DNA of 11,789 nucleotides, taken from Candidatus Pacearchaeota archaeon. GTDB taxonomy: Archaea > Nanoarchaeota > Nanoarchaeia > Pacearchaeales > GW2011-AR1. Position numbers and translations under genes: made by a program. A model generated the notes under the pieces. The model ran no database searches. It was not told the origin of the DNA and was given only the letters and a program-made list of their open reading frames with translations. Below are positions 2,522-9,618 of the stretch, in pieces (position 1 is the first letter of the stretch; each line of letters begins with the position of its first letter). The DNA is taken from contig NZER01000218.1 of the NCBI GenBank assembly GCA_002690445.1, positions 1 to 11,789 on the forward strand, read 5' to 3'.

Positions 2522-3886
2522 ATGGTTTTAAAACTATACAATACACTGAGCAGGAAGAAAGAGGTTTTTAAGCTGTTAAGGGGGCGGGAGGTGCGGATGT
2601 ATGTTTGCGGGCCGACTGTTTATTGGTATCCGCATATTGGGAATTTGAGGAGTTATATTTTTTCTGATGTTCTTAAGAGGGTCTTGAAGTTCAATAGGTT
2701 TGATGTAAAGGACGTAATGAATGTCACTGATGTTGGGCATCTGACTTCGGATGCTGATGAAGGTGAAGATAAGCTGGAAAAGGCAGCTAAGAAAGAACAT
2801 AAGAAGGCGCAGGATGTTGCGAAGTTTTATTTTGATGTTTTTGTTGATGATCTTAAAAAGCTTAATATTTCTCAACCTAAAATTTGGAGTTGGGCAAGTA
2901 AGCATATTAAGGAGCAGATTGATTTGATTAAGGTTTTGGAGAAGAAGGGTTATACTTACAAGACTTCGGATGGGATTTATTTTGATACTTCTAAATTTAA
3001 GAATTATGGGAAGTTGTCGCGGAAGAATATTGCAGGGCTTGAAGCTGGGAAGAGGGTGAGTATGGGGGAGAAGAAGAATAAGACTGATTTTGCTCTTTGG
3101 AAATTTTCTGAAAAGCTGGGGGAGAGGCAACAAGAGTGGCCGAGCCCGTGGGGGGTGGGGTTTCCGGGGTGGCATATTGAGTGTTCTGCAATGTCAATGA
3201 AATATTTAGGAGAAAGTTTTGATATTCATACTGGTGGGGAGGACCATATTGGGGTTCATCATGAAAATGAGATTGCGCAGAGCGAGGCAGCGACTGGGAA
3301 GAAGTTTGTTAATTTTTGGATGCACGGGGCTTTTCTGATTTTTTTCGGGGAGAAGATGTCAAAGTCAAAAGGAGCGGTTACGAGGATTTCTGATTTAGAA
3401 CATCAGGGTTATAGTCCGCTTAATTATAGGTATTTTACTTTTACTGCACATTACAGGAAGCCGTTGGTTTTTTCTGTAGATGCATTGTTTAGTGCGAGGA
3501 CTTCTTATGAGAGATTAAGGAATATTGCAGGTCATATTAAAGATGATGATAAGGAAAATAAAAAATATTTAGAAGATTTTGAAAAAGCAATTAATAATGA
3601 TTTGGATATGCCTAAAGCAATGGCTGTTTTGTGGAAGCTGGTTCGTGATAAGGAGGCTGAAGGTAAGTTTAGGACAATCAAGAAAATGGATAGTGTGTTT
3701 GGGCTGGATTTGCTGAAGAAGGATCGGGTTAATATTCCAACTGAAATTAAGAAGCTAGCTGAAAAAAGAGAAAAGTTGAGAAAGGAAAAAAAGTGGAAGG
3801 CGGCAGACAAGATTCGGAGGGAGATTAGGGGGGCGGGATGGGTGGTGGCGGATGTGGGGGTGGGGTTTGCTTTGGAGAAAAAATGA
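2522..3886 (+). CDS. cysS: Cysteinyl-tRNA synthetase
   Basis: The protein has 454 residues. It is a class I aminoacyl-tRNA synthetase that charges tRNA-Cys using ATP. Visible are the HIGN signature (38-41), the KMSKS loop (278-282) and the catalytic zinc ligands by comparison with the E. coli enzyme: C29, C221 in GWHIEC, H246 and E250 in HHENE. The C-terminal anticodon-binding region is present and ends in a short domain. The length is near the usual 460. The first in-frame ATG lies 24.5 nt from a TATA box, so the mRNA is probably leaderless. A Cys-rich small ORF overlaps the stop by ATGA. The reading frame is intact and the DNA is strongly G-rich. Confidence 0.98.
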   Translation: MVLKLYNTLSRKKEVFKLLRGREVRMYVCGPTVYWYPHIGNLRSYIFSDVLKRVLKFNRFDVKDVMNVTDVGHLTSDADEGEDKLEKAAKKEHKKAQDVAKFYFDVFVDDLKKLNISQPKIWSWASKHIKEQIDLIKVLEKKGYTYKTSDGIYFDTSKFKNYGKLSRKNIAGLEAGKRVSMGEKKNKTDFALWKFSEKLGERQQEWPSPWGVGFPGWHIECSAMSMKYLGESFDIHTGGEDHIGVHHENEIAQSEAATGKKFVNFWMHGAFLIFFGEKMSKSKGAVTRISDLEHQGYSPLNYRYFTFTAHYRKPLVFSVDALFSARTSYERLRNIAGHIKDDDKENKKYLEDFEKAINNDLDMPKAMAVLWKLVRDKEAEGKFRTIKKMDSVFGLDLLKKDRVNIPTEIKKLAEKREKLRKEKKWKAADKIRREIRGAGWVVADVGVGFALEKK

Positions 3887-4002
3887 AAGAAATTAATAAA
3901 GACTGCCCGTGTTATGATGTTGATTGTCCGAGGCACGGGTGCTGTGAAGAATGCCAAGCATATCATCGTGAGCATGGCGGGCAGACGAGTTGTGGAAAAT
4001 AA
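3883..4002 (+). CDS. Small cysteine-rich protein (39 residues)
   Basis: The ATG overlaps the cysS stop (ATGA), and GGAG lies 5 nt upstream, so translation is probably coupled to cysS. The protein has six cysteines and four histidines in a tight pattern: CPC (8-10), CPRHGCCEEC (15-24), AYHREHGG and a late Cys at 37. It resembles short Cys-rich proteins of the type CPC...CPRHG.CE.C..YH found in bacteria and archaea, for which I know no function. Zinc binding is an inference from the Cys/His spacing. The order after cysS may be chance, but a link to cysteine supply is conceivable. Confidence 0.72.
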   Translation: MKEINKDCPCYDVDCPRHGCCEECQAYHREHGGQTSCGK

Positions 4003-4008
4003 TAAAAA
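4000..4008 (+). promoter_or_regulatory. TATA box of the RubisCO leader cassette
   Basis: TAATAAAAA is centred 26 nt before the ATG of the leader ORF at 4030, and it overlaps the stop codon of the preceding small gene. This places transcription initiation at or next to the leader ATG. Confidence 0.5.
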
Positions 4009-4029: not shown

Positions 4030-4101
4030 ATGAAAAAAGTAAATTTTTCTTTGGAAAAATTTTCATGCTTTCATTTTTCTCGTGGAGGAGATGAAAAATG
4101 A
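4030..4101 (+). CDS. Leader ORF, copy A, before the membrane protein-RubisCO operon
   Basis: This is a 23-codon ORF of the pattern MKKxNFSxEKFS then CFHFSxGGxEK. It starts about 26 nt after a TATA box, so it would be translated from a leaderless mRNA, and its TGA overlaps the next ATG (ATGA). A second copy at 6828-6899 is identical at 63 of 72 bases and 19 of 23 residues. The ORF contains a 9-bp hairpin (4041-4062) and the Shine-Dalgarno sequence of the next gene. Eight of the nine differences fall in codons that change the amino acid, so selection may act on the nucleotide sequence rather than on the peptide. It could be a translated leader that controls the second cistron, a functional micropeptide, or a duplicated promoter cassette. 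Confidence 0.55.
   Translation: MKKVNFSLEKFSCFHFSRGGDEK
4041..4062. other. Perfect hairpin inside leader copy A
   Basis: AAATTTTTC pairs with GAAAAATTT over 9 bp with a TTTG loop. The equivalent hairpin at 6839-6860 has the same arms but the loop CAAA, the reverse complement. Confidence 0.7.
4072..4100 (+). promoter_or_regulatory. Start-codon hairpin with SD in the loop, copy A
   Basis: CATTTTTC (4072-4079) can pair over 8 bp with GAAAAATG (4093-4100), which includes the start codon of the membrane protein. The 13-nt loop holds GGAGGAG (4084-4090), a strong Shine-Dalgarno sequence. Translation of the leader ORF through this stem would open it. This is a fold read by eye; copy B at 6870-6898 keeps both the stem and the loop length. 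Confidence 0.45.
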
Positions 4102-4367
4102 AAAAGAGTATGAGTGTTTGGGATATTTTAGCATGGATTGTTCTATTTAGTATTTTATTATGGGTGATTCTTAAGATGCTTGAGGTAATAAACACGCCGA
4201 TTTTACTTGAGTACTATCCTATTTTTGGAGCGATTTATTTAGCAGGATGGCAAATGCACAAACTTGAAAGTGTGGCCAATGATGTTAAGAATTTAAAAAA
4301 ATTTAGAAGAGAAACAATTAATCAGGTAAATGACATAAAACTAAACTGCGCGAGGAACCATTTATGA
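4098..4367 (+). CDS. Two-helix small membrane protein upstream of RubisCO
   Basis: The protein has 89 residues, with hydrophobic segments at about 8-30 and 33-52 and then a charged, probably helical tail (55-85). I do not recognise a family. The start is set by GGAGGAG 7 nt upstream and the ATGA overlap with the leader ORF. Its stop overlaps the RubisCO start (ATGA), so the two are almost certainly co-transcribed and translationally coupled. A functional link to RubisCO is suggested only by this coupling; membrane tethering or an unrelated role are both possible. The AT-richer composition differs somewhat from that of RubisCO. Confidence 0.75.
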   Translation: MKKSMSVWDILAWIVLFSILLWVILKMLEVINTPILLEYYPIFGAIYLAGWQMHKLESVANDVKNLKKFRRETINQVNDIKLNCARNHL

Positions 4368-5653
4368 AACACGTGAGGGCGAAGTTTGCATTTGTGGATT
4401 TGAATTATAAGCCTAAGAAAACTGACTTGGTTTGTTTGTTTCGGGTGAGTCCGGCGAAGGGGCTGAGTTTGGAAAAGGCTGCGAATATTGTTGCGTTGGA
4501 AAGTTCGACTGGAACTTGGACACCTGTTTCTTCTTCTAAGCGATATGTGAATAAACTTGCTGCGCGGGTTTTTTCGATTTCAAAAGATGGTATGGTTAAG
4601 ATTGCTTATCCTGGTCGGTTGTTTGAGGGAGATAATGCACCGAATATTTTGTCTTCGGTTGCAGGAAATATTTTTGGGATGAAAGCTATTCAGGGGTTGA
4701 GGTTGGAAGATATTGATTTTTCTAATGATTTAATTAAAACTTTTGACGGGCCGAGGTATGGTATTGAGGGTATTCGGAAAATTTTGAAAATTAAGAACAG
4801 GCCGTTGGTTGGGACAATTGTGAAGCCGAAGCTTGGGTTGAAAACAGAGGACCATGCTAAGGTGGCGCGGGCGGCGTGGGTGGGGGGGTGTGATTTGGTG
4901 AAAGATGATGAGAATCTGGCGAGCCAGGATTTTAATGAGTTTGATAAGCGGGCTGCAAGAACTTTAGAGATGGCTGATTTGGCTGAGGCAGAGACAGGCG
5001 AGAAAAAAGGCTATCTGATTAATGTGACTGCTGAGACAAAGGATATGCTTGAGCGGGCAGATGTTGTACGTGAGTTAGGTGGAAGATTTGTTATGCATGA
5101 TTTTATTACGGCAGGGTTTGCAGCTTTTCAGACATTGCGGAAGAATACTAAACTTGCAATTCATGCTCATCGAGCAATGCATGGAGCTTTTACTGAAAAT
5201 CCTAAACACGGAATAAGTATGATGGTTATGGCTGATTTTGCTAGATTGATTGGGGCAGATAGTCTGCATATTGGAACAGGAATTGGAAAGATGCGGGGGG
5301 GTGTAGAAGAGGTGGAAGATATTCGCGAAGAAATTGAATTAAAGGAACTGGAGGAGACAAAATTCAGATTAAGTGAAAAATGGGCTGGGAAAAAGCCAGT
5401 GATGGCTGTTTGTTCGGGCGGGCTTTATCCGGGGCATGTTCCTTATTTAATAAAACATTTTAAAAAAGATATAATTATTCAGGCAGGGGGCGGGATTCAC
5501 GGGCATCCGCAAGGAACTAAGGCAGGGGCAATGGCAATGAGGCAGGCAGTTGATGCTGTGATGAAAAAGAAAACGCTGGAGAGGTGGGTTGAAAAGGAAA
5601 AAGCTGTTGAGTTAGGGACGGCGCTAGAGTTTTGGGGGCGGGTTCGGTTTTGA
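4364..5653 (+). CDS. rbcL: Form III-type ribulose-bisphosphate carboxylase
   Basis: The protein has 429 residues, the usual length for archaeal RubisCO. It carboxylates ribulose 1,5-bisphosphate to two 3-phosphoglycerates; in archaea it normally works downstream of AMP phosphorylase and ribose-1,5-bisphosphate isomerase in nucleotide salvage. Key residues by comparison with the plant enzyme: E46 and T51-W52 (N-domain), N102, K154 and K156 in KPKLGL, the carbamylated lysine K180 with D182 and E183 in KDDE, H269-R270, H302, loop-6 K309, S351 in SGG, and the phosphate-binding GGG at 375-377. Nothing essential is missing, so it is a true RubisCO rather than a RubisCO-like protein. GAGG lies about 8 nt before the ATG, which overlaps the membrane-protein stop. 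Assignment within form III (a, b or II/III) needs a tree. Confidence 0.96.
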   Translation: MKHVRAKFAFVDLNYKPKKTDLVCLFRVSPAKGLSLEKAANIVALESSTGTWTPVSSSKRYVNKLAARVFSISKDGMVKIAYPGRLFEGDNAPNILSSVAGNIFGMKAIQGLRLEDIDFSNDLIKTFDGPRYGIEGIRKILKIKNRPLVGTIVKPKLGLKTEDHAKVARAAWVGGCDLVKDDENLASQDFNEFDKRAARTLEMADLAEAETGEKKGYLINVTAETKDMLERADVVRELGGRFVMHDFITAGFAAFQTLRKNTKLAIHAHRAMHGAFTENPKHGISMMVMADFARLIGADSLHIGTGIGKMRGGVEEVEDIREEIELKELEETKFRLSEKWAGKKPVMAVCSGGLYPGHVPYLIKHFKKDIIIQAGGGIHGHPQGTKAGAMAMRQAVDAVMKKKTLERWVEKEKAVELGTALEFWGRVRF

Positions 5654-6317: not shown

Positions 6318-6338
6318 GCCGCGCCCGAAGGGCGCGGC
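6318..6338. other. Strong GC hairpin before repeat copy 1
   Basis: GCCGCGCCC and GGGCGCGGC pair over 9 bp with a GAA loop, about 40 nt after the trmY stop. Copy 2 of the adjacent repeat lacks it, so it is not a constant part of the element. It could help end the trmY transcript, but no U-tract follows. Confidence 0.55.
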
Positions 6339-6428
6339 TTGGTGCCGATGGCAACATACGCGAGCTTTGGGCTCGCTCATTTAGAGCGTGCCTGGCGGCA
6401 CGCAGCTACCTTCGGCAGTTTGGTAATG
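6338..6428. repeat. Four-hairpin intergenic repeat, copy 1
   Basis: This 91-bp element is shared with 9529-9618. It consists of four short hairpins in a row: TGCC/GGCA (6343-6353), GCGAGC/GCTCGC with loop TTTGG (6360-6376), GCGTGCC/GGCACGC (6386-6403), and an imperfect CTACC/GGCAG (about 6406-6418). The border sequences CTTGGTGCC and GCAGTTTGGTAATG are conserved. It is much more GC-rich than the AT-rich flanks. In hairpin four the copy-1 change gives an A-C mismatch on plus-strand RNA but a G-U pair on minus-strand RNA. It has no tRNA or CRISPR pattern; it may be a REP-like element or a small RNA. Confidence 0.75.
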
Positions 6429-6790: not shown

Positions 6791-6798
6791 GAGTAAGA

Positions 6799-6806
6799 TA
6801 TAAAAA
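6799..6806 (+). promoter_or_regulatory. TATA box of leader cassette copy B
   Basis: TATAAAAA is centred 25.5 nt before the leader ATG at 6828. Both leader copies thus have a TATA box at the same distance although the surrounding promoter sequences differ. Confidence 0.6.
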
Positions 6807-6827: not shown

Positions 6828-6899
6828 ATGAAAAAAGCAAATTTTTCCAAAGAAAAATTTTCATGCTTTCATTTTTCTAATGGAGGAGTCGAAAAATGA
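6828..6899 (+). CDS. Leader ORF, copy B, before acylphosphatase
   Basis: This is a 23-codon ORF with the same pattern as the one at 4030-4101: MKKxNFSxEKFS, then CFHFSxGGxEK. Residues that differ from copy A are A4, K8, N18 and V21. Its TGA overlaps the acylphosphatase ATG (ATGA). Sequence identity stops right after the shared ATG and a few A residues, so the repeated unit is the leader plus ribosome-binding region, not the downstream gene. A peptide product is unproven; a cis-acting leader is equally plausible. Confidence 0.55.
   Translation: MKKANFSKEKFSCFHFSNGGVEK
6839..6860. other. Perfect hairpin inside leader copy B
   Basis: AAATTTTTC pairs with GAAAAATTT over 9 bp with a CAAA loop. 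The whole 22-bp unit is the exact reverse complement of the hairpin at 4041-4062. Confidence 0.7.
6870..6898 (+). promoter_or_regulatory. Start-codon hairpin with SD in the loop, copy B
   Basis: CATTTTTC (6870-6877) can pair with GAAAAATG (6891-6898), covering the acylphosphatase start codon. The 13-nt loop contains GGAGGAG. The stem and loop length equal those of copy A, while the loop bases outside the Shine-Dalgarno sequence differ. Confidence 0.45.
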
Positions 6900-7174
6900 A
6901 AAAAGCAGCGAAGATTGTTGTATCAGGAACTGTGCAGGGTGTTTTTTTTAGAGGTTTTATTAAGAAAAAAGCAGAGGGGCTGGGGTTGACTGGGTTTGTT
7001 CGGAATTTGGAGGATGGGAATGTGGAGGTGGTGGTGGAAGGAGAGCGGGAGAATATTAACAAATTGGTTGATTTTTGCAAGAAGGGTCCGGAGCATTCTA
7101 TTATTAGCGGGCTGAAAACAGAAGAGATAAAGTGGTCTGGTGATTTCAAGGAGTTTAAAATTTTGAGGTTTTGA
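6896..7174 (+). CDS. acyP: Acylphosphatase
   Basis: The protein has 92 residues, the standard length of this one-domain alpha/beta enzyme, which hydrolyses carboxyl-phosphate bonds such as that of acetyl phosphate or acylphosphate side products. The signature GTVQGVFFR (11-19) contains the phosphate-binding loop and the catalytic R19. The second active-site residue, N37, is in GFVRNL (33-38), followed by the conserved DGNVEVVVEG. It is cytoplasmic. The start is fixed by GGAGGAG and the ATGA overlap with the leader ORF. It is followed by lysS, which has its own promoter. Confidence 0.94.
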   Translation: MKKAAKIVVSGTVQGVFFRGFIKKKAEGLGLTGFVRNLEDGNVEVVVEGERENINKLVDFCKKGPEHSIISGLKTEEIKWSGDFKEFKILRF

Positions 7175-9495: not shown

Positions 9496-9528
9496 TGTTT
9501 CACATTGTATTATGATTTACTAATCCAG

Positions 9529-9618
9529 CTTGGTGCCTTTGGCAATATAGGCGAGCTTTGGGCTCGCTAATTTAGGGCGTGCCTAGCGGCACGCACTGCC
9601 TTCGGCAGTTTGGTAATG
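9529..9618. repeat. Four-hairpin intergenic repeat, copy 2
   Basis: This 90-bp element corresponds to 6338-6428, with the same order of hairpins: TGCC/GGCA with loop TTT, GCGAGC/GCTCGC with loop TTTGG, GCGTGCC/GGCACGC with loop TAGC, and a perfect CTGCC/GGCAG. The strong extra hairpin found before copy 1 is missing. It fills most of the 205-bp gap between the histone-fold gene and the nuclease gene. Differences between the copies lie mostly in loops and linkers, which points to selection on RNA or DNA structure, or to shared descent with stem constraint. Confidence 0.75.

Follow-up and report, generated by a model that had tools for sequence, protein, structure and literature searches.

A dispersed family of short leader reading frames in front of unrelated genes in Candidatus Pacearchaeota and related archaea

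Two nearly identical short open reading frames (ORFs) stand in front of unrelated genes in an 11,789-nucleotide stretch of Candidatus Pacearchaeota DNA (contig NZER01000218.1; this whole stretch is the window hereafter), raising the question of what such leaders are and how they came to precede different genes. Leader copy 1 (4030..4101, + strand) and leader copy 2 (6828..6899, + strand) each comprise 23 codons, encode the peptides MKKVNFSLEKFSCFHFSRGGDEK and MKKANFSKEKFSCFHFSNGGVEK, respectively, and end in a stop codon that shares an ATGA with the start of the next gene. The copies are identical at 63 of 72 bases and 19 of 23 residues. TATA-like boxes, TAATAAAAA at 4000..4008 and ATATAAAAA at 6798..6806 (both + strand), lie 22-30 nt 5' of the respective leader ATG, and a Shine-Dalgarno motif, GGAGGAG, is found within each leader (4084..4090 and 6882..6888, + strand), with 9 nt from GGAGG to the gene ATG in copy 1. 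The first-pass annotation had described the near-identical ORFs, a TATA box before both, the internal GGAGGAG and the ATGA overlap, and all of these were confirmed.

The leader pair is the best ungapped 72-mer self-match in the window. The other self-match well above background (62/72) belongs to a separate GC-rich repeat, and the next reaches 46/72. The 30-base leader core, searched with up to three mismatches, gave two matches in the window compared with a maximum of 0 in 200 shuffles. Ahead of the leader ATG, blocks of ten bases share 3-5 positions between the copies, with the TATA block (7) as the exception, and from 10 bases inside the downstream genes agreement is 1-6 of 10.

The genes behind the two leaders are unrelated, as had been claimed. 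Leader 1 precedes an operon that begins with a gene for an 89-aa membrane protein (4098..4367, + strand), which has 16 relatives of 57-77% identity in public data and no Pfam family, followed by the RubisCO large subunit gene (4364..5653, + strand; Pfam PF00016/PF02788) with a further ATGA overlap between the two. Leader 2 precedes an acylphosphatase gene (6896..7174, + strand; Pfam PF00708). The closest relative found was locus L086 (MAG ARS1414), whose RubisCO is 79% identical to that of the window and which has the gene order phosphoesterase, CysS, small Cys-rich ORF and RubisCO in common with it. At this RubisCO locus L086 has neither the leader nor the 89-aa gene, and a block matching the window upstream region (TTTGGCAGTTAAT) runs directly into the RubisCO ATG; leader 1 therefore starts at the point where RubisCO itself starts in L086. 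The small ORF of the window (3883-4002) has 39 codons, is Cys/His-rich, lies between CysS and the leader and shares an ATGA overlap with CysS; a similar ORF lies between CysS and RubisCO in L086. The ARS1414 genome (G001) carries two CysS genes, on C28 and C51, that are 73% and 67% identical to the window CysS. The window also contains a second dispersed repeat (6331-6428 and 9528-9618), which is GC-rich, multi-hairpin, intergenic and REP-like; its copies are 90% identical over 68 nt and 96% over 23 nt, and no match to it was found in 99 relatives of G001.

Searches for the leader itself gave few matches at the start. The back-translated motif FSCFHFSxGG had 0 matches in genome contigs, and FSCFHFS had 0 in the 99 relatives of G001; in viral contigs FSCFHFS occurred in 85 stretches, none with the GG of the leader next to it, and FSFIQKxxGYF had 0 matches. 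Among plasmids and phages, the matches listed were short and weak (E 3). A covariance model of the two window copies gave one match in 190 relatives (E 0.0054; G091, L151), which shares hairpin 1 only (see below) and was not counted as a member, and four matches at E <= 1 in 73 loci, none of which was accepted. The negative results of this two-copy model are weak, since it missed the real leader in locus L138. The loci L150-L236, which contain acylphosphatase and 89-aa-gene homologs, likewise yielded nothing with the later 18-member profile.

A DNA search of 371 genomes of the phylum, in which at most two candidates were scored per genome, gave eight matches at E <= 1e-4, of which seven were judged to be chance and one, in genome G371, was kept. 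This match lies inside an ATG-started ORF, MKVNQKFSCIHFSTKIQRKNK, that has an ATGA overlap with a 227-aa gene without a Pfam match. A hairpin 2 pattern run against the same 371 genomes had a single match, the G371 leader, which it matches by construction, and its backwards control also gave one match; the motif FSC[FI]HF was matched 16 times in 92 relatives of G371 and five times in the backwards control, with a complete upstream ORF in G371 only. Locus L138 (MAG SI047_bin24, genome G002), which had entered the set because of its RubisCO alone, has the window's gene order of methyltransferase, small ORF and acylphosphatase. Its leader, MKSNLPSRSKGKFSFIQKKIQRLF, stands before the PF04013 methyltransferase and was spotted by eye when 13,436 ATG-started windows were scanned, among which its score of 37 against the window copies was not outstanding. 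With a score of 48, against a background of 39, the G002 and G371 leaders were each other's best match beyond their own loci in a set of 17,514 windows. A second G002 leader, MKANKKFSFIQKVSGGYFK, overlaps a phosphoglycerate mutase gene. Among 309 relatives of G002, a DNA pattern derived from these leaders of G002 and G371 had eight matches in six genomes, compared with 0 in the backwards control; seven of the eight are leaders, four of them new (G509 twice, G505 and G454). Protein relatives of a 49-aa reading around one leader were limited to one identical protein.

An iterated nucleotide profile, trained on its own members, then delimited 18 leaders in 2.77 Mb at E <= 8.8e-6, with the next match at 0.051: two in the window, 11 in G509, two in G002 and one each in G371, G454 and G505. 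The DNA read, from incomplete genomes, covered 707,833 bases of G002 (most of the genome), 380,676 of G371 (a part), 458 kb of G509, 137 kb of G454 and one contig of G505. The profile found none at E <= 5 in 1.06 Mb of control DNA from other, mainly archaeal loci that overlap in part. All 18 matches lie just 5' of a start codon, and 16 have the ATGA stop-start overlap; one has TGA immediately before the ATG and one stops early. From KFS to the stop there are exactly 14 codons in 13 of the 18, the window copies among them, and 12, 12, 13, 16 and 5 in the rest. The typical peptide reads MKxN..KFSFIQ and continues in one of two ways: a GGYFE-type end, which comes with GGAGGT, or an IKFK-type end, which has no Shine-Dalgarno motif. 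GGAGG or AGAGG is present 7-9 nt 5' of the gene start in 13 leaders, including both window copies. As the other five lack it, the Shine-Dalgarno step is not universal, and the earlier idea of a Shine-Dalgarno-driven second cistron would apply to part of the family. The proposed leaderless start, which the window copies with their TATA-like boxes may use, is not general either, since the leaders at L340:2515, L340:6141 and L312:9708 follow closely behind another gene and have a Shine-Dalgarno motif of their own before the leader ATG.

Pfam families of the genes behind the leaders include uL23, uS3, uL14, Spt4, Aminotran_5 (presumably of the cysteine desulfurase type), a MacB/FtsX permease, an ABC ATPase and, behind a G002 leader, Methyltrn_RNA_2, which we take to be TrmY. 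Phosphoglycerate mutase is found behind leaders in two genomes (G002, G509) and Rpp14/Pop5 in three (G454, G505, G509), with one Rpp14/Pop5 match just above the cut-off and two just below it. The genes of two leaders remain unnamed because these members reach contig ends. The genes share no obvious need. At L354 of G509, leaders stand before both an ABC ATPase gene and a permease gene near to it (positions 4822 and 6455), and that of the ATPase gene (6455) stops early, after 10 codons and 22 nt before the gene.

The architecture alone is common: 64 upstream ORFs in G002, G371 and the window passed a loose filter for TATA box, Shine-Dalgarno motif and overlap, and the control loci contained 740 short ORFs beside a gene-length ORF. 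The family is set apart by its repeated sequence only and not by its architecture. When candidate upstream ORFs were compared genome by genome without reference to the family, the comparison recovered these leaders and the second type described below in the window, G371, G509 and G002, along with some unrelated pairs in G002 and G509, and gave nothing in G454; in the other loci, compared within each locus only, it returned overlapping-frame artefacts.

A second leader type, reading ATGAAAAAAGGAAACTTTTCAAGATATAAATTC..GGAGGAATTTACATAATG, is present in G371 as well. A profile of four such leaders had seven matches in G371 at E <= 9.7e-8 and one in L115 at E 0.017; the window copies were absent from its matches at E <= 5. 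In G371 the type-2 leaders precede uL23, eL32, uL30, uS11 and two proteins that could not be assigned to a family with confidence. Two of them stand in tandem before uS11 (L314:6130-6237), the second starting a few bases past the stop of the first.

We consider it likely that the leaders form a dispersed multi-copy family of short translated fore-cistrons that pass terminating ribosomes to the next gene. Initiation on the leader would use the 5' end of a leaderless mRNA in some cases and a Shine-Dalgarno motif belonging to the leader in others; the ribosome would then read about 14 codons from the KFS motif and stop at the ATGA that overlaps the gene start. The internal GGAGG, 9 nt before the gene start, may keep or recruit the small subunit, while translation of the leader would open structure around the start codon so that the ribosome could restart at the gene. 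Through such a handover, one module would give unrelated genes a standard start, and the occurrence of related leaders before ribosomal-protein and housekeeping genes of other genomes suggests that nature has such a plug-in part for starting protein synthesis.

Two hairpins had been proposed in the window copies. Hairpin 1 (4041..4062 in copy 1 and 6839..6860 in copy 2, + strand) differs between the copies by a loop inversion, as from template switching: the two 22-nt elements are exact reverse complements, so four of the nine differences between the leaders represent one event. All nine lie outside both proposed stems. Hairpin 1 is not a feature of the wider family. In the proposed hairpin 2, the anti-start arm (TTTCATTTTTC, 4069..4079 in copy 1; 6867..6877 in copy 2, + strand) would pair with 4093-4103, which holds the gene start codon, and with 6891-6901, respectively, so that the Shine-Dalgarno motif would be looped out and the start codon paired within the stem. 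Pairing between core and gene start is strong in the window, with a duplex of -13 kcal/mol compared with about -8 for swapped starts. The window copies folded mildly better than shuffles (z -1.2 to -3.6; hairpin 2 alone, -2.3 and -2.6), and the G371 leader gave z values of -0.9 and -1.35 and was equalled by 35 of 200 shuffles. Rfam 15 covariance models gave no leader match in the window, where the single match (E 0.96) lay elsewhere and far under its gathering score, and detected three tRNAs but no leader in 10 relative loci.

At the codon level, the core TTT TCA TTC is strongly constrained. TTT is found in 18 of 18 members, TCA accounts for 17 of 17 Ser codons and TTC for all 12 Phe codons in position four, against 85%, 26% of Ser and 15%, respectively, in G509 codon usage, and the core pairs better with the start of its own gene than with starts swapped between members (permutation values of 0.0014 for all 18, 0.008 without the window and 0.022 without the window and G371); these counts and values are not independent, because the members are related by descent and relatedness inflates them. 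As the core keeps its codons more strictly than the peptide sequence would require, the RNA of the leader probably matters besides the peptide. The nucleic-acid-level function suggested by the first-pass annotation is favored by the invariant synonymous sites but gains less from the hairpins, the first not being family-wide and the second being supported modestly by the pairing tests.

The frozen codons and the preference for the own gene start would also fit a leader that acts as a regulator and not as a constitutive booster, either through its nascent peptide or through a switch between leader-start/anti-start and anti-start/gene-start pairing, moving a regulon of translation and housekeeping genes together. 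Recurrence at the same genes, uL23 in G509 and G371, Pop5-like in G454, G505 and G509 and phosphoglycerate mutase in G002 and G509, points in the same direction. However, most genes behind leaders start with ATGAAA, which alone is enough to make TTTCAT complementary, the kinship of the members weakens the permutation values and codon counts, the folding is only mildly better than that of shuffles, and neither a ligand nor a stalling motif nor a shared pathway came to light, so that we regard a regulator as rather unlikely. Similarly doubtful to us is a genome-wide translational regulon in which the portable micro-ORF would sense the state of the ribosome, by a start/anti-start RNA switch or by its nascent peptide, and co-set ribosomal protein, RNase P subunit, Spt4, RNA methyltransferase and metabolic genes, with leader types differing by lineage at the same gene.

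Returning to the fore-cistron reading, we compared orthologous genes with and without a leader by a motif check of the 75 upstream bases within the DNA read. The acylphosphatase gene has a leader in the window and none in G002, G454 and G001; the PF04013 methyltransferase gene has one in G002 and none in the window, L086, G371 and G454; and the Pop5-like gene has one in G454, G505 and G509 and none in G002. A long leader form precedes the methyltransferase gene in G002 and the Pop5-like gene in G454, and a short form the Pop5-like gene in G505. Leader form therefore does not track the gene, as the long form occurs at two genes and the Pop5-like gene occurs with both forms. The uL23 gene is led by type 1 in G509 and by type 2 in G371. 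The search of relatives proposed with the earlier reading of this DNA recovered further copies, again before unrelated genes, in agreement with its view of a portable cassette as opposed to a gene duplication, and the leaders may have moved as modules.

Movement raises the possibility of a selfish or MITE-like palindromic repeat that inserts at start codons and has the micro-ORF as a by-product. The palindromic arms, the exact inversion of hairpin 1 between the copies, the tandem leaders in G371 and the second palindromic repeat family of the window would all be in line with this. ATGAAAAAAGCA flanks copy 2, with a near match flanking copy 1, and the match between leader start and gene start exceeded that of swapped pairs in all 18 (0.0012 and 0.0067; 0.065 and 0.068 without the window copies). 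Target-site duplication at the leaders was nevertheless set aside: type-2 leaders of G371 start with MKKxNFS before genes that do not start with MKK, so the MKKxN start is intrinsic to them, and the ATGAAAAAAG direct repeats, which had resembled target-site duplications, fit this start of the leader itself. Position just 5' of a start codon in all 18, stop-start overlap in 16, conserved codon length and correct spacing of the Shine-Dalgarno motif where present further argue against a selfish repeat, which we consider very improbable.

The window copies are, as judged by profile comparison, diverged members of the family that are tied in through G371. In a profile built without them they scored E 0.0045 and 0.031 and were the two best non-members in 2.77 Mb, the second only just, as an unrelated match followed at 0.034. 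When G371 was also left out, the profile found G371 at E 0.00029 and did not list the window copies at E <= 10; their membership thus depends on G371 as a bridge, itself originally found by similarity to copy 2. Their starts, MKK[VA]NFS, resemble the second leader type. That the pair is a functionless local duplication merely resembling the family, as the weak leave-out scores and the absence of the peptide motif from genome contigs and from relatives of G001 might suggest, is hardly credible given their rank among non-members, the 14-codon length, ATGA overlap and GG at the same codons that they share with the family, and the fact that both copies, compared with 31,828 ATG-started windows from G002 and G371, matched the G371 leader best, even though it was found via copy 2.

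Coupling through stop-start overlaps is known, and bicistronic cassettes have been hand-built by engineers. In the open-access literature, with little coverage of subscription journals, we came across no description of very short translated leaders that form a natural family and recur before unrelated genes. If the mechanism holds, small-genome archaea have a standard part that evolution has plugged into their metabolic genes and ribosomal operons, and leaderless genes would have one route to acquire Shine-Dalgarno control. As leaders of about 20 codons are easily dropped from annotation, more such families may have been missed.

Attenuation and arrest leader peptides of the TrpL, TnaC and SecM type each serve a particular gene and have codons or motifs that answer to a single signal. 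The leaders described here resemble them in being short, putatively translated ORFs 5' of a gene, but one leader type precedes unrelated genes, no arrest motif was recognized, and neither peptide nor codons carry a signal tied to the function of one gene. With REP- and MITE-type repeats, as these are generally understood, the leaders have in common that they are short, palindromic and dispersed; unlike them, they are fixed relative to start codons and conserve codon length and core. Further parallels come from translational coupling. Overlapping gene pairs of Haloferax volcanii are coupled by termination-reinitiation (PMC6728339), likewise with ATGA overlaps in an archaeon and with a contribution of the Shine-Dalgarno motif that differs between genes; that work concerns gene pairs, whereas here one family of tiny ORFs precedes many unrelated genes. 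A synthetic counterpart is bicistronic design, in particular its leaderless version in Corynebacterium glutamicum (PMC10367133), in which a short fore-cistron behind a leaderless promoter is translated first, both its translation and the Shine-Dalgarno motif are required for the second cistron, and the cassette is intended for use with different genes. That design is engineered, while the leaders described here are natural, repeated within one genome and present in several archaeal genomes, have a conserved core, in some cases lack a Shine-Dalgarno motif, and are predicted to be translated. As in the bicistronic design, the Shine-Dalgarno motif of the second cistron lies inside the first in the window copies and 11 more of the 18 leaders, and the same fore-cistron stands before different genes, here of unrelated Pfam families.
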